From Thermacetogenium phaeum DSM 12270 (GTDB lineage: Bacteria > Bacillota > DSM-12270 > Thermacetogeniales > Thermacetogeniaceae), in contig NC_018870.1 in NCBI RefSeq assembly GCF_000305935.1, positions 1,668,001 through 1,732,000 on the forward strand: a stretch of 64,000 nt of DNA, in the 5' to 3' direction. Shown in pieces: positions 38,417-55,910 of this stretch. A program made the translations under genes and the position numbers. The notes below the pieces were generated by a model. That model worked only from the letters and a program-made list of their open reading frames with translations, searched no databases and was not told the DNA's origin. The stretch's first letter is position 1, and each line of letters begins with the position of its first letter.

Positions 38417-39238
38417 CTATGCCCAATCGTCAAAGAGATGTGGCCATACCTGATCCACACTGGCTTTCCTTTCGATGATCCACGGCTGTATTTGGCGGTC
38501 TATTGAAATGAATCCTTTACGCTCAATTAACGAAAAAACATACTCAATCTCCGACCTATCCCAAAGGCAAATTTCAAACCAGAAAGTCTTGCTGTTAAAT
38601 TCAGAGAAGGTTACCTGATCCCGTCCGGGGAAAAACGCATCCAAAAGGGAAATAATGTATGCGGAATATGGGGTGGCATAAACCTCAAGAACAGGAGCCT
38701 TCTTTCTGGTTACCTTTTCACCTTCCACTGCTAATACCCGCGCTCTTCCAAGGGCTGCCTCTTCAACGTAAGTTAATACAAGCGGCCCCGTTCTGTTGTT
38801 ACCGGGACCAAATATGCTAACCAGGTAATCCTCCAACTGTGGTTTGGTAAAACTGCTTCCGAGAATCCCGCGCCCTTTTGCAAAAATTTCGTGCCAGGCT
38901 TTCGCCCCGATATCGCTACGACACAAGTTCATGTGAACCAGCCATTGCACCATCGGCTCCCCTAGATATTTATCCTCCAAATAAATTATTTTACCAAGGG
39001 ATGTAAGAACCGGCTTTTTGATACCACTTGTTCTATCACTTGCCAGCTCTATCAACCCCATACCCCTAGCATAATCAAGAACGGCCGGCACTTTTCCACT
39101 CGACTCACCCATGGGAATACCGGTGTCTAAAGAGATTTCCTTATAACTGCCCTGTTTACCCAAAGCAGCATATTCAAGGAGAGCAGCAATCAGACGCCTT
39201 TCGGGAATAAATGTTTTGTGAAAATTCACCGGTAACAT
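38417..39238 (-). CDS. DUF4007-like winged-helix protein
   Basis: 273 residues. The N-terminal NFHKTFIPERRLIAALLEYA and the later PVLTSLGKIIYLEDKYLGEP and MVQWLVHMNLCRSDIGAKAW parallel the DUF4007 protein that begins this operon (HETFTPRYGWL, PTKLGHSLLDD, ASLWLLHWQLF). It probably has an N-terminal winged helix (about 20-75) and may bind DNA. As with the first DUF4007 gene it lies immediately upstream of a large AAA ATPase, suggesting a repeated two-gene module. The ATG at 39238 has AAGGGGG ten bases upstream. Assignment by pattern only. Confidence 0.6.
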   Translation of the reverse strand: MLPVNFHKTFIPERRLIAALLEYAALGKQGSYKEISLDTGIPMGESSGKVPAVLDYARGMGLIELASDRTSGIKKPVLTSLGKIIYLEDKYLGEPMVQWLVHMNLCRSDIGAKAWHEIFAKGRGILGSSFTKPQLEDYLVSIFGPGNNRTGPLVLTYVEEAALGRARVLAVEGEKVTRKKAPVLEVYATPYSAYIISLLDAFFPGRDQVTFSEFNSKTFWFEICLWDRSEIEYVFSLIERKGFISIDRQIQPWIIERKASVDQVWPHLFDDWA

Positions 39239-39253
39239 TTCAGAAATGCCCCC

Positions 39254-42200
39254 TTAAAACCTCTGCTCTAGGGGTTTGATCCGAATCTTAAACCATTTAT
39301 TCACTTCTAACCTGCTGGTCGCTTCATTGTAGGCGAAACCCAGTGAGTAACATTCCCCTCGCTTCAACGCAGATAGACGTTCAACCCATTCGTCGAGCCG
39401 CCCGTTAGTGACATCTGCCAGAATCTGGGCAAAAGATCTGATCTCGGTATCTGCAGGCTTAAAAAAAAGTTTATGACTTGCCTGAAAGAGCCTATCTCGC
39501 TGATCCCTATCAAGGTTGCTCAGGGTCTGAGTAGCCAGTATTAAAGAAATACCAAACTTACGACCTTCGGTGAGAAATTGCCCCAGTGGGCTCTCCAAAC
39601 GATGGTCAAGATTCTGAATCTCATCGAGCACTATGATCTTTGGATGATCCTTATTACCCCTCGAGCGGTAGTACCAGTAGAGATCGATGAGAGAAAATTC
39701 CGTTATCAACCTAGCAGTATCTTTCATGAAACCGGCCAACTGGATAATGTGGCACCTTGATACTGGATCCGTAAACAACCTTTCCCAGCTGTCAATATCT
39801 TCTTCACCAAATGGGTTCATATCCACAAACGGCTGGATTTTACTAACCACACTCGCAGCGGAGTTGGCGGTTGGGCCACCAGCACTACGAATTTCATTCA
39901 GCTTATCCAACAACCTGTGAAGATTGAAACTGCTCCCTTCTTGAGCTACTCCATCCCGGATAGCATTGTAAAGTGCCGATTTCTGTTGGTCGCCTAACTG
40001 ATAAACCTCGGCAAATACCCCGCTAACTCGTTGAGCAGTTGCTGCGGGACTTTCTTCTATTTGTACATCGTCGAGGAAGTCCTGCTGCCTGCGAAAAGGA
40101 TTGATAGTCAGGGGTTCTTTGCGAACGAAGTGTTGCTTTGGACTCAGCTTTTCAAGTACTATTGGTTCTAATTGCCTGGTAGTAAATCCATTGGTATAGT
40201 CCACAATCAAGCTATTTTGCCCTGCTTTGCCGAGTTCACAAATTAAAGCTTGAATGGTGTAGGTTTTCCCCGTGCCAGATGCCCCAAATAAAAGAATGTG
40301 CCTGTTTGGTAGGTCTGGATGCCCGAATTCCCAGTAGACATCCCTTCCGCCAGCAGTACCGCTTCCTAAAAGAATTCGCTTGGGAATGTATTTACGTTGC
40401 ACAACAACTGAACTACTGTCCTTCCCGGTTTCCTTCTCAACGGCAACATCCTCCGGTTCATCTGTTACCATCCTCCCTTCATCTGCAGGAGGTATTAAGG
40501 ATTCTTCTAGCCGTTCCCAGGCTTCTTGCTCACCAGGCAAGACGTTACCATTTCCTGCGGTATTTTGTTTCTCATCGCACTTGTTAGACGTATAAATCAG
40601 TTCTGAGCCACTACAGAAAAGACCACTACAGAAAAGATCTGCAGTAACCTCATCATCAAGGCATACCTTTTTAATAAAGTCCTTGCCCGCCGTAGCAACG
40701 GAAATGACCAGGTCCTGCCCTTCTAAACAGAAGTTCCATTGAGGAATAGAGCTGATATTGTCGTTGTTCTGATCGGTCCAAAAGGCTACCGCCGTTGCCT
40801 GCCACGTGATAGAGAAATACCCTTCACTCAAACGTTCCAGAGCGAGGAGAGTTTCCTTGTAGCTAGGCTGTTTCGTCTCGCCCCTGCTGGCAATCAAGCG
40901 ATGCAGTTGCATCCACCAATAGCGTTGGTCGGGCCGGTCATTGATTCCTTGGGGATCATCTTTTGCACGGGGGCGGAAACAAGCTACCAGATGATTCAAG
41001 CCGCTTTCTATCTGCTGGCGGGCTTCCTCCAGATATCCTTCTGACTGTTGAGCCAGCTTACATTCGATGATCTGAGCCTTTATCTGGAAATAACCATCTA
41101 CAATATGAGCCTGCAGCCTCAAAAGGTCAGGGCGCTTACGGTCGGCAGCCTCGTCAAACCAGTGCCGGAAAGCATCCAGGGAAACGATCTCGTCACAAAA
41201 GGCTCCTTTGTCCCTGGGAAGCAACTTTCTGACCATCGCATAAGCAATATAGTCCCGCACGTACTGGGAGGGACCGGTTGCCTTCACTACTGATAGACCG
41301 GCAATATATTCCGTCTCTTTAACAAGACTCTCGGCAATACGATTAGACAAATCAGGCTCTAACGGCCCTAGCAGGGCAGAGATCTGGTCGCTGATTCTCT
41401 TCTTAATGTCTACCATATCAAATCTCTCAGTAGAAACCGTATAGTTATTTTCTCCATGTGGCCCTACACCGGTGCCAAAGCCAATAATTTCCCGGGTCCT
41501 GGCTCCATCCGTCCCTACCCGCCGAAGCAGCTGCTCATCCACAAATGGATCTATACAAACAACCCAAGCGCTGCTCTGATGTGCGGCATCTATTACAGCT
41601 GTCCACGGTCGAAAATCGCTAAAGCTGATAATTGCATGTCTCAGGGCCGGATCACAGTGGCCTTTTTGTATACGAGCCATAACTTCTGCATGTAAAGGTC
41701 CCAGTTTAAAGCGCTGATTACTCAGCACTCTTTCTCGCCTTTTTTCCTTTCCGCCGCCGGTTACCCGGCAGCAGACCTTTTCTAATACCGGGAACTTGCG
41801 GTACCCATCTTCGGAATGATGTTCTTCTCCAAGCAACTCAAAGCGGCTTGCACTTGATTCCATGAAGTTTATAAAGAAAATTACATCCAGGTCCGTGCTC
41901 CTTAACAACTTCTTAAATTGCTCAAAATCGTCTTCCCTTGAAACAACCCGGTAGGAAACAGAAATTCTGCAGTTGTTATAACGCCGGTTGCCGGGCGCCA
42001 ATTCCGCTTCCTGCCACCGGTCCTTCCAGGCATTGATCCACTGCATGACAGCCGAATCATCCCTGGTATCAGAAAAAATAGTCAACTGTAAAGCATATGG
42101 CCTTTCTTCTCGCTCTTTCAGAAGAGCGGCGAGATAAGCATCAATACCGGCGATTACCGGCTGAATCTCCCTCCCGCAATACGCAGCGATACTTATGCCG

Positions 42201-44542
42201 TCGCTGGCGTAAGGATGCAGATCCTGATAATTGAACAAAACCTCCTCAATAAGCCGGGAATCTTGAGTTTCCCGGAAGAGTTCAGCATCGGTTACCTCTT
42301 CGTCTTCAGTGTCATCGTATTCCAAGAGTAACTGGGAAGTAATCGAAGAGGAGGGTTCTTGACATTCACCTATCAAATGAATGTAACCATAACTTCGGAC
42401 ATTAGTATCAAGTTCCCAGCTCAAGTTTTTAAGAGTACCAAAAACCGGCCACTTGATACTGGATAGATCCACGACACGGTCCCAGCGCTTTTCAGTTAAC
42501 GTTCTGTTCCCGGACTCCTCTACCCCCCTCCTGGCATAATAACAAAAGCTTTCGCACAGGTAAGCGTGCTGGTGATGGATCACTTCAAGGAGGGCCGGAT
42601 GCAAAGGTGTGACCACTGCGCATTCTAGGTAATCGTCCCATTCCCAATTCGCTCGTGTGAGACTGCTCCCAGATACAATCGTAAAGGATTTCATAAGAAG
42701 CGGGCCGAAAGCGCTTTTTCCGCTCTTTTGCAGATATTTTTCATAGGCAGCGCAGTAAGCCTTTCGGAGGGAATTATATCTCTTCTTCAATGCGTTAAAG
42801 AATCCCGAGGTCTCAAACTCTCTGAGAAACAGTTGATAACAAATTGACAGTTCGCCCACCAGGGACTTAACCTCGTCCGAACTGTCAATTCCTGCGGCGC
42901 TAAGCAAGTCGGCCATCGTGCACTTGCCGCTCCGAATAGCAGAACTTAATAAACGGTTAACCTCATCCTCATCCCGAGCCATAAAAATCTCTCGCATATA
43001 CGGCACAGCAAAAACGGGGAGAGCGTTACCGCTTCTTTTGTATTCATCCAGTGCCCATCCAAACATATCCGCTAGAAGACGGCATTGGTGGTTTTGGGGA
43101 AGTACCCAGATAAATTCACGCCGGTAGGGCTTACCTGTACGGGTTGTAATTACAACCTCAAATTTTAGGTAGGGTTCACCCGTCGTCGTCTTTGTATACG
43201 CCAGAGTGCTTTTTTCCTCACTCGGGAAGAGAAGAGACTCAAAGCCAACAGCAATTGGATGCTGCTCGTCTCCTAGATATAATCGCAGTTGATCTTCTAA
43301 GTAATCATCGATTCCTCCCAGTATCTGCCTAAGAAAGGCTGTTGCAAGTTGCCTGTCATCACCGTCATCACCGGCATCAAAGTCATGCTTGAACAAGGTG
43401 CTCTTTAAGGTAATACTGTTTAAATTTTCGGCAGCAAGTACCGAGCGCGCTCTCTCTTCTCTTTTAAAATCACCCAATGCAATCCACAGTGCCCGCAAGA
43501 AAACTTCAGGAGGGAGACCAGTCAGCCTTCTCGCTTTGTGCTCCCGTTCAATTCGTCTGCTCCTCTCTTTGTAATTAAGGATCTTGTTGTAAATATAAAT
43601 GAAGTCGGCGGACCACAGTCTCTCGCGGGCTGCCTCCGACCTGTTTTCAATGTAGTCTTTTAGAGCATCCAGTAATTCGTCCATCGACGTAAAACCGCCG
43701 CCGATGTCGTTTTCTAGCTCATTATCCCCAAAACTGGCCCTGAAATTTTCGATCTTTTTAACGGCCTTTTCCCTGGCAGTCGCATCGAGAAACATATGAT
43801 AATTGAAGAACTCTTGTGCAGGGACAACATATTTCGACAATGACCCCCGTAGTGAAGCAAACCTTCCACCTAATCCGCTCATACAAGGCAATTTAAAGAA
43901 TGAGAGGTTACTAAGAATATGTCGATAGGCATCCATACCGCTCATTATGCCTGTAAAGTCCTGCTCCTCCAGATAACAGCTAACGGCTAAAAGATCTGTC
44001 AGGCCGTAATCAAAAAGAACTTTAAACAAATCTGCAATACGTTCAAAATCCTGCTCACTGCCGTCTGGGTTTACATAATCTTTTAAGCAAGCGTATACCC
44101 AGTCTTTAAATGATCTCCTCAGACACAGTGTCCAAACAGCCTGCTGGTCCAGGTGGAAAAAATCTTGCAAACTAGCCCGGTCATCAATATGTTCGTAACC
44201 CGCTAAAAGGATAACAAGGCAATCATAGTCAGGATCCTTTACGCGATTGCGGAGGCTGGTCAGATTATCTCGCTCATTATACCAATTCTTTTGGCGTATT
44301 GCTTCAAAGGTTGACCTGTCAGCAGGTGTACCCTTCTCCCACTCCTTACCCAAACCGTAAGCAATCCCGTATTCAAAAGCAACCCGGCGGTCAACTAACC
44401 TGTTGAACTCTTCACCTAGTTCGTAACCGATTTTCAATAGGAGACTCGATGGATAAGAAGGAAGTACGAACCGGAGCACACCCGAACTCTTAGCAGTTTC
44501 CTCCAGGATATATTTAACTAACGATTCAGCCATATACTTCAT
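39254..44542 (-). CDS. Very large HerA/FtsK-type ATPase (DptH/MAD8-like)
   Basis: 1762 residues. The first ~1300 contain no motif I can name. The C-terminal ~350 form a HerA-type translocase: Walker A LLFGASGTGKTYT near 1420, VDYTNGF, and Walker B IIVLDEIQNLD near 1640, then ILATQTLSNLD as in HerA/VirB4 motors. Size and plan match DptH (DndH) of phosphorothioate-dependent restriction and the terminal ATPase of the MADS defence system (from memory). The DNA-translocating effector of the operon is the likely role. ATG 44542 has GAGGGG eight bases upstream; 15 bases separate its end from the next gene. Confidence 0.8.
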   Translation of the reverse strand: MKYMAESLVKYILEETAKSSGVLRFVLPSYPSSLLLKIGYELGEEFNRLVDRRVAFEYGIAYGLGKEWEKGTPADRSTFEAIRQKNWYNERDNLTSLRNRVKDPDYDCLVILLAGYEHIDDRASLQDFFHLDQQAVWTLCLRRSFKDWVYACLKDYVNPDGSEQDFERIADLFKVLFDYGLTDLLAVSCYLEEQDFTGIMSGMDAYRHILSNLSFFKLPCMSGLGGRFASLRGSLSKYVVPAQEFFNYHMFLDATAREKAVKKIENFRASFGDNELENDIGGGFTSMDELLDALKDYIENRSEAARERLWSADFIYIYNKILNYKERSRRIEREHKARRLTGLPPEVFLRALWIALGDFKREERARSVLAAENLNSITLKSTLFKHDFDAGDDGDDRQLATAFLRQILGGIDDYLEDQLRLYLGDEQHPIAVGFESLLFPSEEKSTLAYTKTTTGEPYLKFEVVITTRTGKPYRREFIWVLPQNHQCRLLADMFGWALDEYKRSGNALPVFAVPYMREIFMARDEDEVNRLLSSAIRSGKCTMADLLSAAGIDSSDEVKSLVGELSICYQLFLREFETSGFFNALKKRYNSLRKAYCAAYEKYLQKSGKSAFGPLLMKSFTIVSGSSLTRANWEWDDYLECAVVTPLHPALLEVIHHQHAYLCESFCYYARRGVEESGNRTLTEKRWDRVVDLSSIKWPVFGTLKNLSWELDTNVRSYGYIHLIGECQEPSSSITSQLLLEYDDTEDEEVTDAELFRETQDSRLIEEVLFNYQDLHPYASDGISIAAYCGREIQPVIAGIDAYLAALLKEREERPYALQLTIFSDTRDDSAVMQWINAWKDRWQEAELAPGNRRYNNCRISVSYRVVSREDDFEQFKKLLRSTDLDVIFFINFMESSASRFELLGEEHHSEDGYRKFPVLEKVCCRVTGGGKEKRRERVLSNQRFKLGPLHAEVMARIQKGHCDPALRHAIISFSDFRPWTAVIDAAHQSSAWVVCIDPFVDEQLLRRVGTDGARTREIIGFGTGVGPHGENNYTVSTERFDMVDIKKRISDQISALLGPLEPDLSNRIAESLVKETEYIAGLSVVKATGPSQYVRDYIAYAMVRKLLPRDKGAFCDEIVSLDAFRHWFDEAADRKRPDLLRLQAHIVDGYFQIKAQIIECKLAQQSEGYLEEARQQIESGLNHLVACFRPRAKDDPQGINDRPDQRYWWMQLHRLIASRGETKQPSYKETLLALERLSEGYFSITWQATAVAFWTDQNNDNISSIPQWNFCLEGQDLVISVATAGKDFIKKVCLDDEVTADLFCSGLFCSGSELIYTSNKCDEKQNTAGNGNVLPGEQEAWERLEESLIPPADEGRMVTDEPEDVAVEKETGKDSSSVVVQRKYIPKRILLGSGTAGGRDVYWEFGHPDLPNRHILLFGASGTGKTYTIQALICELGKAGQNSLIVDYTNGFTTRQLEPIVLEKLSPKQHFVRKEPLTINPFRRQQDFLDDVQIEESPAATAQRVSGVFAEVYQLGDQQKSALYNAIRDGVAQEGSSFNLHRLLDKLNEIRSAGGPTANSAASVVSKIQPFVDMNPFGEEDIDSWERLFTDPVSRCHIIQLAGFMKDTARLITEFSLIDLYWYYRSRGNKDHPKIIVLDEIQNLDHRLESPLGQFLTEGRKFGISLILATQTLSNLDRDQRDRLFQASHKLFFKPADTEIRSFAQILADVTNGRLDEWVERLSALKRGECYSLGFAYNEATSRLEVNKWFKIRIKPLEQRF

Positions 44543-44558
44543 AACGCTTACCCCTCAA

Positions 44559-46175
44559 TCAATTGTTTTTACTAAAAGTGTTGCGCACTATAGAACACGC
44601 ATCCGAAAGCTCGGTCAAAAAACCGCCTGCCCTGAGCATCTCGGCTAACCAGGAACCCTTCGCCGGCAGGACAGAACTGTTGGCAGGTAATCCACTCCAG
44701 TTTAAGGCTCCTATAAGTTCCTTTCCTTCAATAGCAATCCCATAATGGTAATAAAGTCGCCTCAGAAATTCATCATAAGTACACCGTTCACCCGGCCTCA
44801 AAAGTACCAAGACCAGATAGCGCAAAATCTTATCGGTCATAATAAACCTAGCGCCAGGCCCTTTCTTAGGCACGATCATTCCAAGCTTTTTTCCTAGAGA
44901 GAGAAACAGCTTGTGCCCATATTTAGTGTCTGCTTCTTTATAGAGCCTACTCTTCTCTTTACGAGGGTCACGGGCAGCATTCTTCTGTAATGCATCAGAC
45001 CGAAGAGATTTTTGGATAAGTCCCTGAATGAACTGCAAATTCCGCTGAGAAGCCAGGCGCAATTGTCGCGAAGATGAAGCCGGAGGTGAAAAGATCCAGG
45101 CATAGCCAAGAGCAGTATCATTCGTTGCACCGGTAAAGCCTCTTGCATATCGCAAGCTCTGGGCGCACAAACTACGCAGAACATGAAGGGCAAAACCAGT
45201 CATCAAAAGCTCCAGGCGCTCCACTGGGTCTAATACTGCCGCTAAAAGTCGATTGATTTCTACAGCAAACAGATAACCCTCTAGCCAACTCTCCTCAGGA
45301 CACCACTCACAAACCAGAGCTTCAGTCTTCTCGTCGGTCAGTTCATGCGTTTCTCTGTCGAGCAGCTCTAGATAATCAACCAGGCGCTCAAAAGCAGCCG
45401 TGTACCGACCGCTCAGCTCCTTCAGCCCTTCCTGCAGCGACCGGTGCAGCTTAGATAGGTTGGATTCATCAGAACAAAACCCCAATGATTTTGCAATATC
45501 TTCTATTGCCGCTTGCCTGTTTGCAAAAACATTGCACAGCTGCAAGTATAGTAGTTCGCCACCTCTTGAGAGGAAGTCTCGTTTTTTAGTACTGTAAAAT
45601 TTGTTAAAATCTTTTATAGTATCATGCCAACTAAGAACAGATTGTTTTTTTGCAACAGTTTCATTCCATATTGTTTCCTGCGTAAGAAGATGGGCTGATA
45701 CAGGGTAAAAAGTCTGGGCACACCAGGTCCTGTTAAATCCTGCCCCCTGAAAACCACGCAACAAATCCTCTATCCAATCCTTCACCTCTTCAATAGTGCA
45801 ACCGCTTACTTTTATATTTTTTCCCAGCTCATTTATTAAGTTTTCATAGTGTTTCTTGTGAATATAGTGTCTGGAGTCAACCCGGGAAATGCCAAGAAAT
45901 GCCAGAAGTTTCAGGTTCAGCTTTATAGGGGGTTTATAGAACAGTTTAGCATCAGGGGTGTCGTACCATTTCCGAAGTTCTTCAAGCGAAGGAAGAGGAG
46001 ACTCGATTGTTTCGCCGTTACCGATCCGTTTATCCGAAAAGACAACGGCCAGAAATTCGGCCAAGTATTCCACAATTGTTTGTTCATTGGAAAATCGCTT
46101 ACCAAATAACCTGATAGCAGGATTGTAATCACCAGCAACATCTTTGATGTGAGGAAAAGGCACCGGTAAACTCAC
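44559..46175 (-). CDS. Unknown protein between kinase and HerA genes of the defence operon
   Basis: 538 residues, soluble, mostly helical. I recognise no catalytic motif. Its C-terminus (TYDEFLRRLYYHYGIAIEGKE) looks like a small DNA-binding or interaction domain. The GTG start overlaps the kinase stop by four bases (GTGA) with GGAGGTG five bases upstream, so the two proteins are probably made in fixed ratio. The position between a kinase and a HerA ATPase corresponds to DptG in Dnd restriction operons or MAD7 in MADS (gene order only). A partner or adaptor for the HerA protein is the working guess. Confidence 0.7.
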   Translation of the reverse strand: MSLPVPFPHIKDVAGDYNPAIRLFGKRFSNEQTIVEYLAEFLAVVFSDKRIGNGETIESPLPSLEELRKWYDTPDAKLFYKPPIKLNLKLLAFLGISRVDSRHYIHKKHYENLINELGKNIKVSGCTIEEVKDWIEDLLRGFQGAGFNRTWCAQTFYPVSAHLLTQETIWNETVAKKQSVLSWHDTIKDFNKFYSTKKRDFLSRGGELLYLQLCNVFANRQAAIEDIAKSLGFCSDESNLSKLHRSLQEGLKELSGRYTAAFERLVDYLELLDRETHELTDEKTEALVCEWCPEESWLEGYLFAVEINRLLAAVLDPVERLELLMTGFALHVLRSLCAQSLRYARGFTGATNDTALGYAWIFSPPASSSRQLRLASQRNLQFIQGLIQKSLRSDALQKNAARDPRKEKSRLYKEADTKYGHKLFLSLGKKLGMIVPKKGPGARFIMTDKILRYLVLVLLRPGERCTYDEFLRRLYYHYGIAIEGKELIGALNWSGLPANSSVLPAKGSWLAEMLRAGGFLTELSDACSIVRNTFSKNN

Positions 46176-49100
46176 ATGAACACCTCCAGCGAACTGTCAG
46201 AAACAATAATCTTCATCACCCGAAACGTACGGTCGGGGCCAATCCGTAACAATCTCAAATACCGATCCTCATCTTGCTCCGGCCGTTGGCCGGTATGATA
46301 AATATTCATCAGGTCCCCCTTAAACCGCTCTAGACGATCAGTGTAATTAGCAGAGAGTTCTTCCACTACATCACCTTCATATCTACGTGCCACATAATCA
46401 AGGAAAGGCAAGTCAAGGTTCATTTCTGCGAGCCTATCACCTTGCCGGTAACGCAGGCAAAATATTCCGCTGCGGTCTTTCCCTATCTGGTATCTTTGTT
46501 TTACAGCCAGCGCAAAATCTTCTGCTCGCAAAACTGCCAGTATCAGCTGTGTTTTAGAAGATCCTTCGCGCCGTTTTAAAGTTATGTAAATATCCTTTTC
46601 CTGCCAACTCTCCTCCGGCAGACGCGCTCCTATAAAATATTCTTGCAATACTTGGAGGATCCGGTAGCGATAGCTCCGTTCCAATAGCGGCGATATCTCA
46701 TTTCCCGCCGTAAATTCCAGAAATCTCATCAACATCGGTGAACGCAGAAAGTTGGACACATATTTCTTCTCCCCAATTTCATCAAGTTTGGCAAAGAAAT
46801 AGACAAGACGGCGCATCTGTCGGCGCGCAGCAGGACCATCTTTAGCAACTTCATCTGCCAATTTTTGATATATATTTTTAGCTTCCCCCGTGAGGGGTAG
46901 AGGGGGTCCCCCTTCTACCCAGACCTTTCTTTCAAATGAGGGGTCAAGAACAACTCCAAACTCCGCCTCCCGGATCCGCCGCACCGGCAACAGCTGCATA
47001 GCTTCAGGGACTGTATCAATGCCATCATCCCCAAAAAACCTGTTAAAGAAAAGAGAACCTAACAATAGATCCTGGAGAGCGGTGTAAGACATTTCGGCAA
47101 TCCGAGGGCAGTCTATTCCGGTAGTAATGGCGTATGCCAGATGTCCGGTCATCTGCCGCATGGTAAGACGGACATTATATTCATATAGGCGCCTGTAGAG
47201 AAGCATGATCCGTTTGGAAACCACATCAAGATTTTCCTGGAGAAGTTTCACATTTCTGTAGATAGGGCAATAATCTCTATATTGACATGTTTTATTCGGA
47301 AGCCAGTTCCCGGGGTCCAACATGCGCCTAAAAACATCGCACGCAGTATCTATACTGTCCATCCTACCGATGTTTACCACTAAAAAACATCCGTTGAGTA
47401 TATGTTGTGGAACATCTGCTTCTAGAGCCTCTAGAAGCTCGCTTTCATCGATAACCATTCCCTCTATTTTCAGTTTCTTGTAGCTTTCCAGCAAAGTGCC
47501 GGTATTAGAAACGATGAGATAACTGTCCGTCTTGTTTTCCAGGGCCTCTGCCAAAACCCGAGAGCGCTCCTCTTCTGGTAACTCGCTCATATCTTTAACT
47601 ATCATCAGGTTAAGCTCGTCGATTTTTTCTTTCGATTTCAGCTGTTGAAACTTCCCCGTTAGCTTCCAGATGATCGCCCCAGCAGTAGTTGTTTTGCCAT
47701 CACCAGCATTGCCGGTAAGGATAACATTGTTACGCTCGCAAACCAGTTGTTCGTAAATATAATCAATCAGCGGATTATTAACAAATATTCTCTCAAAGTA
47801 AGTATTCCCGAATTGGGATTCTGCAGTAGCATTTTCGTTATAAGCGGACGCATTAGAAAGTGAATTAAGGTAAGCGACAAAGGGGTTTATACTCACGGGC
47901 AGCAATTGTGCTCCGACTTCTTCAGTTTTTTCAACTTCCGGCTTTATTTCTTCCTGCAATTTACTGCATTCAATGAATGCTTCTCTCATTTCTTTTATTG
48001 TGGCAAATCGCTCGCTGGCTTGCGTTGCTACAGCCTTCAACAGCCATGGTATATATCTTTGTATGTCATCTTCTAGAGCCTCAGGTATCTGCGGTTTATC
48101 ACCGATTACCGGATTATTATAAGGCTTTGTACCAAAAAGCCACTCCCATAATGTAACTCCCAGTGCAAAAAGGTCACCGCCTACTGAGAACTCCATATCC
48201 GTCCCTCTTATGCTGTCAGGCGGTACATACCCCACAGTGCCCTGGAAAACATCAACCCTGGGCTCACCGGCAATCCCACAATCTATCAGAACTGCTTTCC
48301 TGTCCTTCGTAATTAATATGTTATCCGGCTTGACGTCACTGTGAAGCAGTGGCTGAGGATTTCCTTCTTCATCTCTATGTTCATGGAAATCCTCCAGAGC
48401 ATCCATCAGGCAAAGTGCAACGGTCCGGAAGGTCTCAATATCCGGCCCTTCATGCCGGTCGATTTTGTTCCGCAGGGATTCCCCTTCAATGTACTCCAAT
48501 ACGATAAAGTAACGATCGTTCTTCCAATGCCCGATTCTGTCGTAACAATGAATAACATAAGCCGAATTGATCGCACTGGAGATCTCAGCTTCCTTAAGAA
48601 TCCTTTCCAGGGGAATTTCCTTGTTAAAAAGCTTCAGCACAACAAGCTGACCGCGAAGAGTCCTCGCTTTGTAAATCTGTGCTTCTGCTCCTATACCAAT
48701 TCGTTCAATGATTTCATAAACATCATACTGGTCACCGCTTTGCAACTCAGGATTAACGTTTCCCGGTTCAGCACTTTTCAGGCCTTCTTCTTTATCTAAA
48801 CTGAATGCGGCAATAATCTTGTCGGCGTCTTTCAAGCGCCCTACCCTGTCGGCAACTATCATACCTTCGATAGTCTCAATGGTCCTAGCCGAAACTCCAG
48901 AATCTGCTAGCTTCTGGAGCAACTGTTTACTTAAAACTCCACCTTGTGCCGCGAACTCCCTCACACTGGCAAAAGGCTTAACACCTGTCAGCATTTCATA
49001 AGCAATAACTCCTAAGCTGAAGTAGTCAGTGCCTTCATCAATGTCTTCGCCTGCAAGTACCTCCGGTGCAATGTAACCATCATCCTTTAGCTTTGAAACA

Positions 49101-50680
49101 TCTGGAATAACAGTAATACGGTTGTCCTCAATTTGATATACAAGATCAAAATTCATCAATTTAGGAATGTCGTTCATCATCAGAATGTTTTCCGGTTTTA
49201 CCGCGCGGTGAATTAGATCAAGCCGGTGCGCCTCACTGAGAGCATGAGCTATGCTGCGGCATATCCCCAACGCCTCATCGATAGGAAAAGGACCTCTGTG
49301 CCTACGAATAAGATCCCGCAGCGTCCCTGTGTTCGACCAATCAGATATTTCGATGATATCCCCGTCCTCGTTTTTAATCACAGAAACTTTAAGGATGTGG
49401 GGATGATCTCCAATTTGAGAAACAGCATTTAAAGTGTTATAAGCCTTTCTAAGAAAACGTTCTTTCCCCTCAGCATTCGCGTATGCGGGTGTACGAAAGA
49501 TGCGAAAACGATGCAAACCCCTTGCAGGTGCGTTAATCGGCCTTGCAACAAGTTCAATGCATTCGGGGCTCTGGGATATATATTCTACGGTTTCATAGCC
49601 GGGAACGGTATACTTTATGCTTTGTCTGGGAGTATTAAGTTTATGAATATAATTAATAATGGCTTCTATTTGTTGGTCTTCAAGTAAGTGACCCTGTAAT
49701 GATTCCCTTCTCTTCAAATAAGAGATAAAGTCGGAAATGGAAGCAAAGGTAAGATTATGTGTGTTTTGTTCAGCAGCAAGTCCTGGAGAGTTAGCACCTT
49801 CAACAGTGCTCTCGGGGTTTGTAAAGACTACAACGGATTCTATCCATAGATCAGGGTAAGTCTTAAAGCGATGCTGGTAAATCCCTTTCAACACTTTGCA
49901 TTTGAAGCTGTTGTTTTTATGTGGATCGGTTCTGTAATGGGTACCGTTGATTTCCCAATTATACGGGGCGATTCGGATATGACCAGACCAGTGTTTGAGC
50001 TCGACAACGTATATACCTGAACGAGAGACCAAAACTATGTCATATTCGTAATAATTATTTGTTTGGTTGTCATATATCCAGATATTATTTAGAAGTTTAC
50101 CAATATTTTGGTTAGTAATTATGCTGTTTATAATGCTAATTGCAGATTGCTCATGCTTAAATAAGCTACTTTGTTCTTTTACTATTATTCCTTTGCCATC
50201 CGTGGTATTAGCTGAACTAATGTGGTATTGATGGCTACTCATTTTACAAATTAAATCAATTAATTTTTCTTTAAAATTTGTTCGTTCCTGTGCAATTAGC
50301 ATCAGCTGATATAACTTTTCATCTAGATACCCATAATCCACAGTTTCTATTAATCTCTTTTTTGTCAGTCTGGTATTTTCGTATATTTTATATATTGACT
50401 CTTTTCCTTCTTTAATTTGTAGGTGCCAAATGCCATCACTTTGCAGATGATAAAAGGGATATTCTAATTTCTTTTTGTACTGTTCCATATCTGGGAAAAA
50501 AATATCAAAGTAAGATAAATAAATTGGTTCTATTTCATCGTAGGTGAACTTATTTTTGTGATTAGGTTTTTTTTCGAAAATAACAGCGATAGTTAAGAGG
50601 AACAGATATTTATGCGGATTCACCTCTGCCCCCCGTTTGTAAACTCTTAATCGATTCAATAGATCTTCTACCTCTAACAT
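46172..50680 (-). CDS. Sulfur-binding-domain / NERD nuclease / pseudokinase-kinase / P-loop ATPase fusion
   Basis: 1502 residues with five parts. Residues 1-150 match the ScoMcrA-type DNA sulfur-binding domain (NPHKYLFLL with His23-Lys24, and EYPFYHLQSDGIWHL with Tyr74-Pro75). Residues 175-325 are a NERD nuclease-like domain (YEYDIVLVSRSGIYVVELKHW; Asp214, Glu227, Lys229). Residues 355-625 are a kinase fold with HRA for HRD and NFD for DFG, so probably inactive. Residues 652-905 are a second kinase with Lys683, HSDVKPDN and IDCG, probably active. From about 960 comes a P-loop ATPase (LTGNAGDGKTTT). This resembles PglW/MAD6 kinases with an added sulfur reader. ATG 50680 has GAGGTG five bases upstream. 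Confidence 0.85.
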   Translation of the reverse strand: MLEVEDLLNRLRVYKRGAEVNPHKYLFLLTIAVIFEKKPNHKNKFTYDEIEPIYLSYFDIFFPDMEQYKKKLEYPFYHLQSDGIWHLQIKEGKESIYKIYENTRLTKKRLIETVDYGYLDEKLYQLMLIAQERTNFKEKLIDLICKMSSHQYHISSANTTDGKGIIVKEQSSLFKHEQSAISIINSIITNQNIGKLLNNIWIYDNQTNNYYEYDIVLVSRSGIYVVELKHWSGHIRIAPYNWEINGTHYRTDPHKNNSFKCKVLKGIYQHRFKTYPDLWIESVVVFTNPESTVEGANSPGLAAEQNTHNLTFASISDFISYLKRRESLQGHLLEDQQIEAIINYIHKLNTPRQSIKYTVPGYETVEYISQSPECIELVARPINAPARGLHRFRIFRTPAYANAEGKERFLRKAYNTLNAVSQIGDHPHILKVSVIKNEDGDIIEISDWSNTGTLRDLIRRHRGPFPIDEALGICRSIAHALSEAHRLDLIHRAVKPENILMMNDIPKLMNFDLVYQIEDNRITVIPDVSKLKDDGYIAPEVLAGEDIDEGTDYFSLGVIAYEMLTGVKPFASVREFAAQGGVLSKQLLQKLADSGVSARTIETIEGMIVADRVGRLKDADKIIAAFSLDKEEGLKSAEPGNVNPELQSGDQYDVYEIIERIGIGAEAQIYKARTLRGQLVVLKLFNKEIPLERILKEAEISSAINSAYVIHCYDRIGHWKNDRYFIVLEYIEGESLRNKIDRHEGPDIETFRTVALCLMDALEDFHEHRDEEGNPQPLLHSDVKPDNILITKDRKAVLIDCGIAGEPRVDVFQGTVGYVPPDSIRGTDMEFSVGGDLFALGVTLWEWLFGTKPYNNPVIGDKPQIPEALEDDIQRYIPWLLKAVATQASERFATIKEMREAFIECSKLQEEIKPEVEKTEEVGAQLLPVSINPFVAYLNSLSNASAYNENATAESQFGNTYFERIFVNNPLIDYIYEQLVCERNNVILTGNAGDGKTTTAGAIIWKLTGKFQQLKSKEKIDELNLMIVKDMSELPEEERSRVLAEALENKTDSYLIVSNTGTLLESYKKLKIEGMVIDESELLEALEADVPQHILNGCFLVVNIGRMDSIDTACDVFRRMLDPGNWLPNKTCQYRDYCPIYRNVKLLQENLDVVSKRIMLLYRRLYEYNVRLTMRQMTGHLAYAITTGIDCPRIAEMSYTALQDLLLGSLFFNRFFGDDGIDTVPEAMQLLPVRRIREAEFGVVLDPSFERKVWVEGGPPLPLTGEAKNIYQKLADEVAKDGPAARRQMRRLVYFFAKLDEIGEKKYVSNFLRSPMLMRFLEFTAGNEISPLLERSYRYRILQVLQEYFIGARLPEESWQEKDIYITLKRREGSSKTQLILAVLRAEDFALAVKQRYQIGKDRSGIFCLRYRQGDRLAEMNLDLPFLDYVARRYEGDVVEELSANYTDRLERFKGDLMNIYHTGQRPEQDEDRYLRLLRIGPDRTFRVMKIIVSDSSLEVFM

Positions 50681-50689
50681 TCTTTCACC

Positions 50690-51511
50690 TCATTTAAAAA
50701 CATCACACGCATTTAAACCGGTAAGAGGTATCTCTTCTATTAGTTGGGATAGTTTCTTAACAGCATTCTTTTCATATTGAGGTTTTTCTTTTAAAACATC
50801 CTCTAAAACATCCTCATCAATATCACGAAGGAATAGAGGTTTACCCCCTTTAATTCCTCTCCAAGTGTAAATCCTACCGTCAGAGTGGTTTTCCTCATAT
50901 TGACAAGCCTTTTCAAATTTATCTGGATGATATTTTTTTAAGGCTCTCCATTCAGCATCAGTTTGATAAAAGCAGAAATAGCATCCAGATCTCTTTCTCC
51001 ATTTACTATAATCTGGTAATCCTAGACCGGAAGTTTGTAATATGTTTAGTACATCTTCCAAAGTAATACTGTCCTCAACAAAGGGAAATCTAGGTTGAAT
51101 GTTTCCTTTTTTGTTACTATACCCTAGTCGATTTTCGTCTGCCCTGAGAGCTACATAACTATAAGTCCAATCATTACCAATATAATCTTCGTATGGTTTA
51201 AGCTTAAGTTGGCGGGTACACCATCTATTCTGTGGTGATGGTAAAACACCCTTATAATACTTTAACCAGTAATCAAAATCTCGCTCGGATCTCAAAACAG
51301 TTATTTCAATATTCAGAACAGCCCGAATTCTTTCTATATACTCGTAAGTCTCCGGGAGTTCACACCCACTATCTGTAAAAACATATTCAATATCTAAATC
51401 CGGATATTTGTCGCGCATATAGACAGCTAATGCCGCGCTATCCTTGCCTCCCGATAGGGCAAGGATATGCCGTTCCTTTTTACCTTTATTCTGGATGCAG
51501 TTATTTGTCAT
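50690..51511 (-). CDS. PAPS-reductase-family (DndC/SspD-like) ATP pyrophosphatase
   Basis: About 273 residues. The PP-loop ILALSGGKDSAAL is near residue 20, then FTDSGCELPETY as in adenylyl-transferring N-type pyrophosphatases. Cysteines in RWCTRQLKLKP, GCYFCFYQ and KACQYEE could hold an iron-sulfur cluster, as in DndC. In Dnd and Ssp systems this protein activates DNA for sulfur insertion. Start chosen at ATG 51511 inside the end of the ATPase gene (coupled; stop of that gene at 51501). Visibly more AT-rich than the flanking genes. No separate DndA, DndD or DndE is present in the window, so the exact product is open. Confidence 0.85.
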   Translation of the reverse strand: MTNNCIQNKGKKERHILALSGGKDSAALAVYMRDKYPDLDIEYVFTDSGCELPETYEYIERIRAVLNIEITVLRSERDFDYWLKYYKGVLPSPQNRWCTRQLKLKPYEDYIGNDWTYSYVALRADENRLGYSNKKGNIQPRFPFVEDSITLEDVLNILQTSGLGLPDYSKWRKRSGCYFCFYQTDAEWRALKKYHPDKFEKACQYEENHSDGRIYTWRGIKGGKPLFLRDIDEDVLEDVLKEKPQYEKNAVKKLSQLIEEIPLTGLNACDVFK

Positions 51512-54500
51512 TTGAATCACTCTCAATAATTTTCTCTGCCAAAGCAGCGAGAATCACCCTAGCCTTTTCTACAGGAAGTGCCAGAATGGCACTCAATGTC
51601 TTCCGAAGCTCTGGATCCTGGCTCTGCCCAATATTAATGACCTCCCTTCTGATTTTACCGCCAGGCCTCATAATGCTGATCAGCCTGGTATTCTCTTTTA
51701 CAAAGTAACCATTAAGAGAAGCCAATGTTTCCAGCTGACAGATGCGGTGGGCATAGTCTCGTAGTTTTGCAGCAAATAGCATGAAATCCTCATCGTTCCA
51801 GGAGTCCATATGCTTTTTTACTACGATCCCAGCAACACCTCTTGCCCATTCGGCAGGATCTTGATAGTCTCTCGCCAGGACTTGGAGGACAGCCTTAAGT
51901 TCAGGCTCATCGCAGATGTCAACAAGTTGCATGGCTCGTTTTCGCTCGTTTTCATACAGATCTTGTAAGTTTTTGCCCCCAAAAACTTTCAGCATCATTT
52001 TCTGAACACGTTCATTAAGGGCCGGATATGCTTTGCCCAATTCCAAAAGTGCTGCTCTCAGTCTTCTTCGCAATTCATCCCGCCAATTGCTGTTATTTTC
52101 GGACTTTTCTTTAAAATCAATTCCAACGGCCCTAGGCAATTCTTCGAACAAGAGCTGCATCGGATCTACTGACCTTTGAATTGCCAAACGGACTTGTTGG
52201 GCTTCACGGGATACTTGCCTGGTGTTTCTAGCATACGCCGTTAGGCTGTTTATGAATTTTATTATGGGACCGACCACACCCAGCATTGTAGTATTGCGCA
52301 GTCCGCGATTCCCCCCGACCTGAGCATCCTTCAAGATGTGTCTATAAATATCAAAGACTTCCCGCTCTACGTTTTTGGAAACAAATCGCTTCAGAGTAAA
52401 TAAATCCGGGCGTTTGACCATCAGAGCCATTTCAGAAGCGGTCATATAGGGCCGATAAGAATTTTCTTGAAAAACGGCGATCTCCTCGGATTTGACAATA
52501 AGATATAAGCAGATATAAATAGGAGCCGGTCCCTGCCTCATACCGAAGGGCGGTTCGTGCAGAATATCGAGAATTTCGGCAACGCTTATCCCTTCGTCAC
52601 CAGCAGCGGCTATACATTCATCCAGCTTATCCCATAAATATTTCAACGAGGGATCGTTACCTTCTAAAGAACAACGCCAACAACCTGTCTCTTCATCCAT
52701 AACATGCAACCCTTTTGCCAAAAGCAGAGATCTGTATACAGCTACCTCAGGGCCATACCCTTCTAATCCAAGCTGCTCTTCCTCGGCACTTGTTACCATT
52801 GCCTCAACAAGTTCCCGCCGGGCCCTTGCAGCAGCGCTTGATAATTTTTCATAACTGATCATCTCATTACCTATATATGGGCATTTCCAATAAAATCGGT
52901 CGCATAGGTCAGAAAGCTTGGAAGAGAGTTCTCTAGCGTCCCGCACCTCCACCCGCTTTCCCTCTGAATACCAGAGCACATTCTCAGAGCCGGGGAGATA
53001 AAGCCTGGCTAGGTGCTCGCGAAACTGCTGCTCTGCAGCCTTGATGCGAAACTTAACCTCTTTTCTCGCCACACCATCGTGAGCGAGTTCATGGCTTTCC
53101 TCCAGCACTAAGCGGGCAGCGATTACTTCCAAAGCAAGCTCATGAAGAGTCGTCCTGGAAGAAACATATGCCATTATAAGCGGCCGACCATCCCGGCATG
53201 TTTTCGGGACAACAGCCGGCTCTTTAAGGGTTCCGAAACAATAGAGAAAGAGCCCATCATAACCATTTTGAGGAGTTAGATCATCCGACAGCGATTCCAC
53301 ATCCAACCAGCGCCGTTCGAAGCGCCTGACGGTTCCAGTTTTGTAAGCATGGCGAGAAGCAACAACCGGAGAAAGTGGTAAATATTCCTGCAGAAGCGCC
53401 TCAAGCGACCCAATAGAAAGCCTTGCCTTCTTTTCCCGAATCGCTCCGTATACATCAAAATCAGAGCCTTCCCAAAGTCGGTACTCCCCAGCGTATTCTC
53501 TGTACAGAAGAATGCCTCTTTTAACCAAATTTTTAATCGACAACGTAACAGCATCTCTATCTGTGCCTTGTGAGTATCTCATAACAGTATAGATAATATG
53601 TAGATCAGCTTTGATGCCAAGGGTTCCCGACAAAAGGTTAAGCACTCCGACGGTTTTTAAAATGGCATGATCCTGTAATGAAAGGTAGCCGGCGTTTTCA
53701 ATTATGTCATAAATCTCTATCCACCTTTGGGATTCAGCGCGGTTGCTATAAACGGTAGTGCTAATACTGAAAAAGTAGTCATAAAGATAGTCAAGTCCTA
53801 AAGCAGGCAATCTTTCCTGAGCGGTGAATTCAGTCTTTTCCAGGTATGCAGGCAACGCATTCGTTTGTCCGCTACACATGAATGAAAGGAGCGTCCGATC
53901 ATTTTGGGCAAAGCGACGGCATAGTTCAATCAAGGCAACGGCAGTTAAAGGATGAAGAGGATACAGGCTTGCAATGGTATCTTCATCAAAATTATTCTTA
54001 TAGGGTATATTAATTTTATTAATAAGCTGAGACGCTTCTCTTGCCCATTGCTTTATGCGATCCTTGACTATCTTGTCATTATTTTGTTTTAATGCCTTGC
54101 GCATCAAGTAAAGCATCTGGGGTGCCGGTTCCACGAAGGAGATATCCTCAAAACGCCCCTGGACCTTGCTCCATTCCTGCCTCTGAGCTGTAGATAATCC
54201 AAAAACATATTCGTCAAAGGCCTGATGCAGGCAGACCCAGATGTAAACCGAATCCGCTTCTGCTAACTGCTGCAAGATGAAAATATCACCTTGATCATGA
54301 TAATGCGACATATAATCCAAATTTTTGCCAAATTCGTCTATCACTATAAGTAAGGGCCTTTTAACAGATTGTTGGATATCCATGAAGGCGGTAAAAAGCT
54401 TATGAGAATCTATAAATCTCTCACTTTGAAACGCTTTCAATTTAGAAAGATGTTCGGCAGTATCAGATATTCCAAAAGCCATTAGCGCCTGCTCCAGCCC

Positions 54501-54911
54501 TCGAGCCAGGGTGTTGTTCACGGGTTCGTAAGCAGCTGTTACAAAAATCTGAAAAAAACCTGCATTCCCAACCGCTTTATTTATGCTATCTAACAGCCTT
54601 TCATACAGCTGAAAATTGGCAGATCTCAGTTTCTCAAGAGCAATTTGCGCTCTTTTGCTGCTTGTCGGACCGGTAAGAGCGAGAAGGTAATTAGCGAAAG
54701 CCGATTTGCCCATCCCGTACGGCCCTGTCAAAGACCAGGCGGAAACCCTCTCTCCTTCTAAAGCACATCTAAAACGGTCAAGAATCTCGAGAGTCTTCGT
54801 AGTTACCTGGTAATCTTCCATTAAAACGGTATCCTTACAATCTCTTTCTATATTTATTGAGCGAACGATGTTCATGTCTACGGTGATAAAGTCTACTAGT
54901 TTCATTTTCAT
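51501..54911 (-). CDS. Large AAA-type ATPase of the defence operon (first copy type)
   Basis: 1136 residues. Walker A SLTGPYGMGKSAF at residues 60-72 and Walker B LLIVIDEFGKNLDYM near 187-201. The YPLHPLTAVALIELCRRFAQNDR segment resembles lid regions of large defence ATPases such as BrxC/PglY. The C-terminal half is helical with a charged end. The ATG at 54911 overlaps the DUF4007 stop (ATGA). It shares the N-terminal P-loop and DEFG Walker B plan with the 1441-residue ATPase at the other end of the operon, suggesting an ancient duplication. DNA processing for modification or sensing is the likely role. Confidence 0.8.
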   Translation of the reverse strand: MKMKLVDFITVDMNIVRSINIERDCKDTVLMEDYQVTTKTLEILDRFRCALEGERVSAWSLTGPYGMGKSAFANYLLALTGPTSSKRAQIALEKLRSANFQLYERLLDSINKAVGNAGFFQIFVTAAYEPVNNTLARGLEQALMAFGISDTAEHLSKLKAFQSERFIDSHKLFTAFMDIQQSVKRPLLIVIDEFGKNLDYMSHYHDQGDIFILQQLAEADSVYIWVCLHQAFDEYVFGLSTAQRQEWSKVQGRFEDISFVEPAPQMLYLMRKALKQNNDKIVKDRIKQWAREASQLINKINIPYKNNFDEDTIASLYPLHPLTAVALIELCRRFAQNDRTLLSFMCSGQTNALPAYLEKTEFTAQERLPALGLDYLYDYFFSISTTVYSNRAESQRWIEIYDIIENAGYLSLQDHAILKTVGVLNLLSGTLGIKADLHIIYTVMRYSQGTDRDAVTLSIKNLVKRGILLYREYAGEYRLWEGSDFDVYGAIREKKARLSIGSLEALLQEYLPLSPVVASRHAYKTGTVRRFERRWLDVESLSDDLTPQNGYDGLFLYCFGTLKEPAVVPKTCRDGRPLIMAYVSSRTTLHELALEVIAARLVLEESHELAHDGVARKEVKFRIKAAEQQFREHLARLYLPGSENVLWYSEGKRVEVRDARELSSKLSDLCDRFYWKCPYIGNEMISYEKLSSAAARARRELVEAMVTSAEEEQLGLEGYGPEVAVYRSLLLAKGLHVMDEETGCWRCSLEGNDPSLKYLWDKLDECIAAAGDEGISVAEILDILHEPPFGMRQGPAPIYICLYLIVKSEEIAVFQENSYRPYMTASEMALMVKRPDLFTLKRFVSKNVEREVFDIYRHILKDAQVGGNRGLRNTTMLGVVGPIIKFINSLTAYARNTRQVSREAQQVRLAIQRSVDPMQLLFEELPRAVGIDFKEKSENNSNWRDELRRRLRAALLELGKAYPALNERVQKMMLKVFGGKNLQDLYENERKRAMQLVDICDEPELKAVLQVLARDYQDPAEWARGVAGIVVKKHMDSWNDEDFMLFAAKLRDYAHRICQLETLASLNGYFVKENTRLISIMRPGGKIRREVINIGQSQDPELRKTLSAILALPVEKARVILAALAEKIIESDSNDK

Positions 54912-55849
54912 TTAGCTCCCAGTATAGTTCTTTTCGAGTTGTAATACCTCTGCAGAGCTTCCCAGTATAGCTCTTCGGGGGCACCACTATAGTGAAGTTG
55001 AATACTGCCCATCGTATCTACCAGGGAAAAGCTCTCAAATTCCTTTCCGGCAGCATATAGACAGGAACCAACCGCACTCTCCGGCACCTTGAAAACTACG
55101 CCAGGAGAATTAAAATCATAGGTTAACCGCTGCAAAGACATGGTTTTTTGTTTTCCTGATGCATATGAGTGAATGTACGAAAAACAAGCAGCAGCAAATA
55201 TCAAAGGTGGCAGGTTAGGTTTTTCAGCAGTATCAAAACTATAATGGTTTTTTTCTTCTGCTCTGCGAATGATCCCCAGCTGAGCAAAAGGGCATTCGAT
55301 TTCATACTCTTTCGTTGACGATACATCGCTATACATCCTGATTATGCAAGAAGCATCCCTTTCAAAAGATTTCTCCGATAGTGAGGCAAAACGCGGGTAC
55401 TTTTGGGCAACACTTTTTATCACACCGGCAAGCTGTTTTATATCAAAACTCCAAAGGTTGCATTTGTTAAAGGCCAGCGGCCAACTAACTGCCTGGAAAG
55501 GCGGTATAAAGAGTTGCCAATGCAGCAACCATAAAGATGCCACATCCTCTAGGTAAGGATCCCATCCTTCATCATCTAGAAGACTGTGGCCTAACTTTGT
55601 CGGCCTTATATAACCATGAGAGTCGGGTTCAATGAGCTTGAATGCTTGACACCAGAACCGTATAGAACTGACCATATTTTTTCCAACGCCAAGACGCTCT
55701 ATTGAGTCGCGTGCTTTGAAAACATCACCATTTTGGAGCACAGCATCATAACCTTTTTTCAACCATCCATACCGCGGGGTGAATGTTTCATGCCTTCCCA
55801 TGCACGCTTGAGCAATATAGTCGTCCTGCTTCAATGTCCCCGTTTGCAT
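54908..55849 (-). CDS. DUF4007 family protein, first gene of the defence operon
   Basis: About 313 residues. GRHETFTPRYGWLKKGYDAV, then LGVGKNMVSSIRFWCQAFKL, TKLGHSLLDDEGWDPYLED and SLWLLHWQLF are the DUF4007 signature, a family that accompanies PAPS-reductase-like genes in defence islands. The central part probably forms a winged helix that could bind DNA. I take the ATG at 55849; an upstream TTG at 55873 is also possible. It lies about 60 bases from repeat copy B, so the operon promoter falls in or beside that repeat. Overlaps the next gene by four bases. Confidence 0.8.
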   Translation of the reverse strand: MQTGTLKQDDYIAQACMGRHETFTPRYGWLKKGYDAVLQNGDVFKARDSIERLGVGKNMVSSIRFWCQAFKLIEPDSHGYIRPTKLGHSLLDDEGWDPYLEDVASLWLLHWQLFIPPFQAVSWPLAFNKCNLWSFDIKQLAGVIKSVAQKYPRFASLSEKSFERDASCIIRMYSDVSSTKEYEIECPFAQLGIIRRAEEKNHYSFDTAEKPNLPPLIFAAACFSYIHSYASGKQKTMSLQRLTYDFNSPGVVFKVPESAVGSCLYAAGKEFESFSLVDTMGSIQLHYSGAPEELYWEALQRYYNSKRTILGAK

Positions 55850-55910
55850 TCCCCTGGTTCCCTTCTTTTCCAAGAAACTGCTATAAAAATACGTTCCGGT
55901 TTATCCTTGA

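Follow-up and report, generated by a model that had tools for sequence, protein, structure and literature searches.

The DNA sulfur-binding domain (SBD) of ScoMcrA holds the phosphorothioate (PT) sulfur in a pocket formed by H116, R117, Y164, P165 and A168, of which P165 and R117 are essential according to mutagenesis (R117K being tolerated) and Y164 is poorly conserved across homologues (PMC6224610). The published SspFGH complex damages DNA that lacks PT and is toxic in PT-free cells, and SspBCD calms it (PMC8092258); the part of the complex that reads PT is not named in the open-access literature examined. Iyer, Burroughs and Aravind (2024) described a succession of wHTH, NERD, and inactive and active kinase domains fused to the core of DndF, a homologue of SspF, and treated the SBD of ScoMcrA as equivalent to a wHTH (PMC10853773). 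The locus presented here lies in a stretch of 64,000 nt from Thermacetogenium phaeum DSM 12270 (NC_018870.1, 1,668,001–1,732,000), hereafter the window, whose positions are used as coordinates throughout. Eight minus-strand genes, separated by intergenic gaps of −26 to +16 bp, form an operon in which a large fusion protein is encoded by the fourth gene. In gene order, they are:

54908–55873, minus strand: SspB (DUF4007), phosphorothioation gene (PADLOC E = 1e-102; Pfam DUF4007 E = 5.7e-93)
51501–54911, minus strand: SspC, AAA+ ATPase of the modification module (PADLOC SspC, 1252.7 bits)
50690–51526, minus strand: SspD, PAPS-reductase-like PP-loop enzyme (PADLOC SspD E = 9.5e-97, DndC 3e-4)
46172–50680, minus strand: SBD-NERD-pseudokinase-kinase-SspF fusion ORF, 1502 aa
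44559–46175, minus strand: SspG (PADLOC SspG E = 1.2e-22)
39254–44542, minus strand: SspH/DndH-like protein, HerA/FtsK-type ATPase at its C-terminus (PADLOC DndH 9e-58, SspH 2.9e-20; PDB DptH 7es4, E = 1.9e-5)
38417–39238, minus strand: second DUF4007 (SspB-like) protein, which accompanies SspFGH in 52 of the 59 loci where the sequence extends far enough beyond SspH on its downstream side
34079–38404, minus strand: second SspC-like AAA+ protein, 1441 aa (PADLOC SspC E = 4.5e-17), which accompanies SspFGH in 50 of the same 59 loci

With this gene content, the operon can therefore be assigned to the SspBCD-SspFGH phosphorothioate defence systems. The initial annotation had called the gene just upstream of the fusion DndC-like; it is a phosphorothioation gene, but SspD rather than DndC, and part of a complete sspBCD set. 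A DndABCDE-DndFGH system was rejected on the same grounds, since the modification genes are sspBCD and the PP-loop protein matches SspD at 9.5e-97 against 3e-4 for DndC. The operon is flanked by alaS on one side and by an M20 peptidase/peptide-transporter cluster on the other, and its G+C content is 43.8%, compared with 49.5% for the window. No cysteine desulfurase (SspA or IscS) is found inside the operon; four near-full-length class-V aminotransferases are encoded elsewhere in the genome. The possibility that the two downstream genes are recent duplicates of SspB and SspC was rejected because their pairwise similarity to these is weak, which is also why they are labelled only “SspB-like” and “SspC-like” here. 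Given their recurrence among the loci, what was published as a three-gene SspFGH module often has the look of a five-gene one. Sequence searches gave no significant match to solved structures for either SspF or SspG. From its genes, the locus is a variant SspBCD-SspFGH system with a genuine predicted SBD.

According to Pfam and PADLOC searches of the 1502-aa protein, the SBD is followed by a NERD domain, two kinase domains and an SspF core. The features of the fusion protein are as follows:

50231–50680, minus strand: SBD with a winged-helix fold, residues 1–150 (sequence, profile and structure matches)
50594–50620, minus strand: NPHKYLFLL, residues 21–29; H23 and K24 correspond to H116 and R117 of the ScoMcrA sulfur pocket
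50420–50464, minus strand: EYPFYHLQSDGIWHL, residues 73–87; Y74 and P75 correspond to ScoMcrA Y164 and P165 (pocket lid and floor)
49496–50227, minus strand: NERD nuclease-related domain, residues 152–395 (D214, E227, K229)
48767–49489, minus strand: kinase domain 1, a pseudokinase, residues 398–638 (HRA in place of HRD)
47906–48754, minus strand: kinase domain 2, residues 643–925 (K683, E697, D782, N787, D800)
46172–47890, minus strand: SspF core, residues 931–1502 (P-loop LTGNAGDGKT, Walker A present; PADLOC SspF E = 2.1e-32)

What had initially been described as the ATPase part of a kinase-ATPase protein is thus SspF, followed in the operon by SspG and SspH, so the protein belongs as a subunit to a restriction complex already known. 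The Pfam matches of the 1502-aa protein do not include an HNH nuclease domain, and classification as an SBD-HNH type IV restriction enzyme was rejected for this reason.

Residues 1–150 are a DNA sulfur-binding domain, as had been proposed from the sequence. When searched as a single sequence against all PDB sequences (phmmer), they match SBDHga1 (8h0l) with an E-value of 4.6e-11. The NCBIfam model NF045808 (“phosphorothioated DNA-binding restriction endonuclease”) covers residues 5–128 (E = 2.5e-13), with a score of 49.8 bits against a cut-off of 180 that is set for the whole protein, including the HNH domain. With an SBD profile from which the window sequence had been left out, the window SBD reaches 141 bits, and none of the roughly 1,900 shuffles scored exceeds 12.5 bits. 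When a profile of 42 relatives is compared with the PDB, the entries with an E-value up to 1 are all known SBDs (8h0l, 5zmo/5zmn/5zmm and 7cc9/7ccj/7ccd), with values of 6.6e-36 for 8h0l, 4.1e-9 for 5zmo and 7.5e-5 for 7cc9. A Pfam search of the SBD region returned no significant match.

The structural comparison leads to the same domain family. The AlphaFold2 model, obtained from an alignment of 42 SBDs (from the window and the fetched loci), has a mean pLDDT of 94.6, and Foldseek places 8h0l on top (E = 1.8e-8), with the SBDs of SprMcrA and ScoMcrA next. The model superposes best on the SBDs of SBDHga (8h0l), ScoMcrA (5zmo) and SprMcrA (7ccd), with VIA-align Z-scores of 18.8, 13.7 and 13.1, respectively. 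The best structural matches are SBDs throughout, from Z 18.8 to 12.9, and the next unrelated one is at 9.6. These next-best neighbours in VIA-align (Z 9.6) are Orc/Cdc6 winged helices. Published work places SspC among the ATPases of the Orc/Cdc6 clade, and judging from these resemblances a common origin of the SBD and SspC is possible.

The residues of the window SBD equivalent to the ScoMcrA pocket are H23, K24, Y74, P75 and H78, so that the His/Lys(Arg) and Tyr-Pro pairs that the initial annotation had picked out in NPHKYLFLL and in the second motif are present at the expected positions. Among 54 aligned SBDs, counting only sequences with a residue at the column considered, K24 is kept in 50/50, H23 in 47/50 and P75 in 50/53, and position 74 is variable. 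This is the pattern that would be expected of sulfur readers, and the predicted sulfur pocket (H23, K24, P75) is intact. In a profile alignment with gaps nearby, basic residues around 102–109 align opposite the base-contacting SRGRR loop of ScoMcrA. With regard to sequence context, SBDHga has reportedly been found to be relaxed. The SprMcrA SBD does not bind CpsCA, the context made by the characterised SspBCD (PMC7470945), which counts against an SBD as reader of the SspBCD mark.

The NERD and kinase domains were examined in 25 aligned NERD-kinase-kinase proteins. Each residue of the NERD nuclease triad (D214, E227 and K229) is kept in 24/24 relatives with residues at those columns. The HRD aspartate of kinase 1 is gone in 22 of 24 relatives, and this domain is regarded as a pseudokinase because of this loss. 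Kinase 2 keeps K683, E697, D782, N787 and D800 in all 25 relatives and is active-looking, with a complete predicted catalytic set. The joining of NERD and kinase domains to the SBD in one chain, as first noted, therefore stands, except that the first of the two kinases is a pseudokinase. The NERD-kinase layout scores 349.7 bits with the MADS kinase MAD6 model NF047741 (curated cut-off 460) and 172.9 bits with the BREX PglW model NF033442 (curated cut-off 990), and membership of either family was rejected since both scores are below the curated cut-offs. On the SspF tree, the kinase insertion was gained or lost several times, and the NERD-kinase block is an optional insert, or co-effector, between the SBD and SspF.

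The SspF core used as bait gave 80 loci from many phyla. A contig scan with the SBD alone as query and a scan of viral contigs found no relatives, a search with the whole protein was dominated by the kinase (mostly kinase-only matches), and plasmids searched with the SspF core yielded a single weak match, too little for a plasmid link. Together with the window and the fetched genomes, the bait-found loci contain 83 non-redundant SspF genes. The SBD is directly N-terminal in 51 of these, 19 with NERD-kinase-kinase and 32 without it. Seven genes have NERD-kinase-kinase but no detected SBD, three of them starting at or near a contig end, and the remaining ones are bare or cut. In three loci (L045, L047 and L097), the SBD is encoded nearby by an ORF of its own or belongs to a split gene. 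The SBD thus tracks SspF and not the kinase, since 32 of the 51 SBD-bearing proteins are kinase-less and NERD-kinase-SspF proteins without an SBD occur (for example L050, L078 and L080). Among the 61 loci with at least 5.6 kb upstream, sspB/C/D genes are present in 35/35 SBD-bearing and 15/26 SBD-less loci (Fisher p = 1.8e-5, with shared ancestry ignored). Four phylogenetically independent pairs go in the same direction wherever they differ, which is not significant, there being too few contrasts. Some SBD-less SspF loci have sspBCD nonetheless (L059, L064 and L091).

Several of the loci have arrangements of their own. At L031:9674-12172, L046:6201-8444 and L048:9269-11713, SBD and SspF share a protein that has no NERD-kinase block, which makes these proteins small targets for biochemistry. 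At L033:6641-7510 (G110), SspF is replaced: the gene after sspBCD codes for a protein with an SBD and an HNH match that stays below threshold (E = 0.0015), and its SBD nests among those of SspF, though SBD-HNH enzymes normally avoid PT-making loci. An SBD-HNH gene adjoining a gene annotated dndB is found on a Chlorohelix plasmid (L119:2394-3357). A divergent Clostridia clade (L105, L107, L108, L112, L114 and L115) has an SspD-like gene of 570–590 aa, a divergent SspC and a bare SspF, without SBD; in L105 the SspD-like gene combines PAPS reductase with a ferredoxin-like domain, and a NifS-like gene lies between SspC and SspF. A class-V aminotransferase (SspA-like) precedes a bare SspF at L081:8509-9621 and L106:8846-9943, Pfam-confirmed in L106, and neither locus has sspBCD within 10 kb upstream. 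In L077 and L089, where SspF is also bare, sspBCD is divergent from sspFGH, with a further NifS-like gene beyond.

The SBDs found on SspF are of two subtypes. In gammaproteobacterial SspF proteins, the SBD is of another kind, which resembles the EcoWI-like and ScoMcrA SBDs more than SBDHga; a profile of this second kind matches 5zmo at 1.5e-15, one of its members (L093) matches NF045808 with an E-value of 2.9e-24, and its model gives Z 17.0 with ScoMcrA. In SBD trees including HNH-attached SBDs, a branch with a support of 100 sets gammaproteobacterial SspF SBDs together with EcoWI-like HNH SBDs apart from the rest, and a single clade of all SspF SBDs is rejected (AU p = 1.8e-5 and 2.1e-5). The SBD has therefore joined SspF, or been swapped with HNH enzymes, more than once. 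Both subtypes are joined at the same place on SspF.

We consider it likely that residues 1–150 act as a PT reader on SspF, signalling self or non-self to SspFGH as well as to the NERD and kinase domains, most likely as a brake. SspBCD, with a cysteine desulfurase encoded elsewhere, would introduce sulfur into the host DNA, and the hydrophobic pocket of the SBD (H23, K24 and P75) would grip this sulfur. Through SspF, the SBD would then tell the SspFGH complex whether the DNA is self, and the NERD nuclease and the pseudokinase-kinase pair located between the SBD and SspF would be informed likewise. PT binding would most probably amount to self-recognition, and unmarked phage DNA would lead to the release of the SspFGH, nuclease and kinase activities. 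The mark being read is probably the host's own because SBD-bearing loci carry ssp modification genes. A role like that of Type IV enzymes, with the SBD detecting PT on incoming foreign DNA, is known for SBD-HNH endonucleases (PMC7461809), but seems very improbable for an operon which itself supplies the PT mark, ssp modification genes being found at each of the 35 testable SBD-SspF loci; SBD-HNH genes, for their part, adjoin dnd clusters in less than 3.6% of cases (PMC7461809). It is also quite unlikely that the domain is by now a plain DNA-binding winged helix which docks SspF on DNA and has lost sulfur discrimination. The fold is indeed a winged helix, with Orc/Cdc6 next at Z 9.6, and Iyer et al. 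count the SBD among the wHTH domains and regard what lies N-terminal in DndF as co-effector domains (PMC10853773). The most constrained positions, however, include those of the pocket (K24 50/50, H23 47/50 and P75 50/53), Y74 varies as it does in true SBDs, ssp modification genes are found at every testable SBD-bearing locus, and two subtypes have been fused.

As for the direction of the signal, a brake is preferred over a trigger because the published SspFGH does its damage to DNA without PT and SspBCD calms it. Host PT bound at the SBD could instead switch on SspFGH, the nuclease or the kinase, phage DNA being then attacked: PT stimulates SspE (PMC8092258), it activates SBD-HNH endonucleases instead of inhibiting them (PMC7461809), and SBDs of the kind found in the window occur in both SspF and HNH proteins. 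We regard such an activator as fairly unlikely given that the published SspFGH is toxic in PT-free cells and restrained by PT, the opposite of SspE (PMC8092258). The initial annotation had described a reader wired to a signalling kinase, which would make kinase signalling the main output and the ATPase part secondary. An intact kinase 2 does share a chain with the SBD, with its catalytic residues kept in 25/25. This arrangement is only one variant of the reader on SspF, however: 32 of the 51 SBD-bearing SspF proteins are kinase-less, L050, L078 and L080 have the kinases without the SBD, and the insertion has come or gone several times on the SspF tree, so kinase signalling is unlikely to be the main output. 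Returning to the preferred reading, of a PT reader acting as a brake, SspFGH systems across the family cannot all rely on the SBD as their reader. About 40% of SspF proteins are without SBD, and the PADLOC SspF models (525–600 aa) begin at the same point as the SspF core of the window, from which it follows that the published SspFGH probably discriminates PT without an SBD; another reader must then exist, to which the SBD could be auxiliary. More tentatively, kinase 2 and NERD may be switched on directly, within the same polypeptide, when the SBD finds no self mark (or finds one), as a second layer of defence against unmarked phage DNA met by SspFGH, and, more generally, the SBDs joined to SspF at least twice may be the self/non-self readers of many SspFGH systems.

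The SBD recurs on SspF at many loci with sspBCD, where it comes in two subtypes and retains its pocket, which makes it a candidate PT reader. In the window protein, it also physically connects the reading of a mark on the DNA backbone with a kinase of the Ser/Thr type. It has its whole-domain fold, sequence homology and His/Lys(Arg)/Pro pocket in common with SBDHga (8h0l), ScoMcrA (5zmo) and SprMcrA (7cc9), but unlike them it has no HNH or SRA partner, being carried by SspF with NERD and kinases in between, and its operon makes the PT mark itself. Its location beside mark-making genes is the reverse of that of the SBD-HNH enzymes, which avoid dnd clusters. SspE, the PT-sensing effector that is paired with SspABCD, senses the SspBCD mark via a hydrophobic cavity (PMC11662687); it is a different protein, and PT stimulates it, whereas PT restrains the published SspFGH. 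MAD6 of MADS and PglW of BREX share the layout of NERD and kinase with the window protein, which differs from them in its fused SBD and SspF and in an operon for PT and not methylation. The SspABCD-SspFGH system of Vibrio anguillarum FF-93 likewise has SspB, SspC, SspD, the SspF core, SspG and SspH (PMC8092258). Compared with it, the SspF of the window is extended at its N-terminus by about 930 residues (SBD, NERD, pseudokinase and kinase), and the operon has the additional SspB-like and SspC-like genes and is without sspA; for FF-93, sspFGH is presented as a cassette of three genes, and neither a kinase nor an SBD is mentioned (PMC8092258). The multidomain DndF of Iyer et al. very probably has the same architecture as the window protein, in which the succession of a pseudokinase and an active-looking kinase is as they noted for fused kinases (PMC10853773). 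Since wHTH-NERD-kinase-kinase-DndF has already been reported, the architecture is not new. In the accessible part of that article, the DndF wHTH is not called a PT reader, co-effectors are proposed, and SspF or SspFGH are not named (PMC10853773); what is added here is that the domain is identified as an intact SBD, tied to sspBCD and repeatedly fused.
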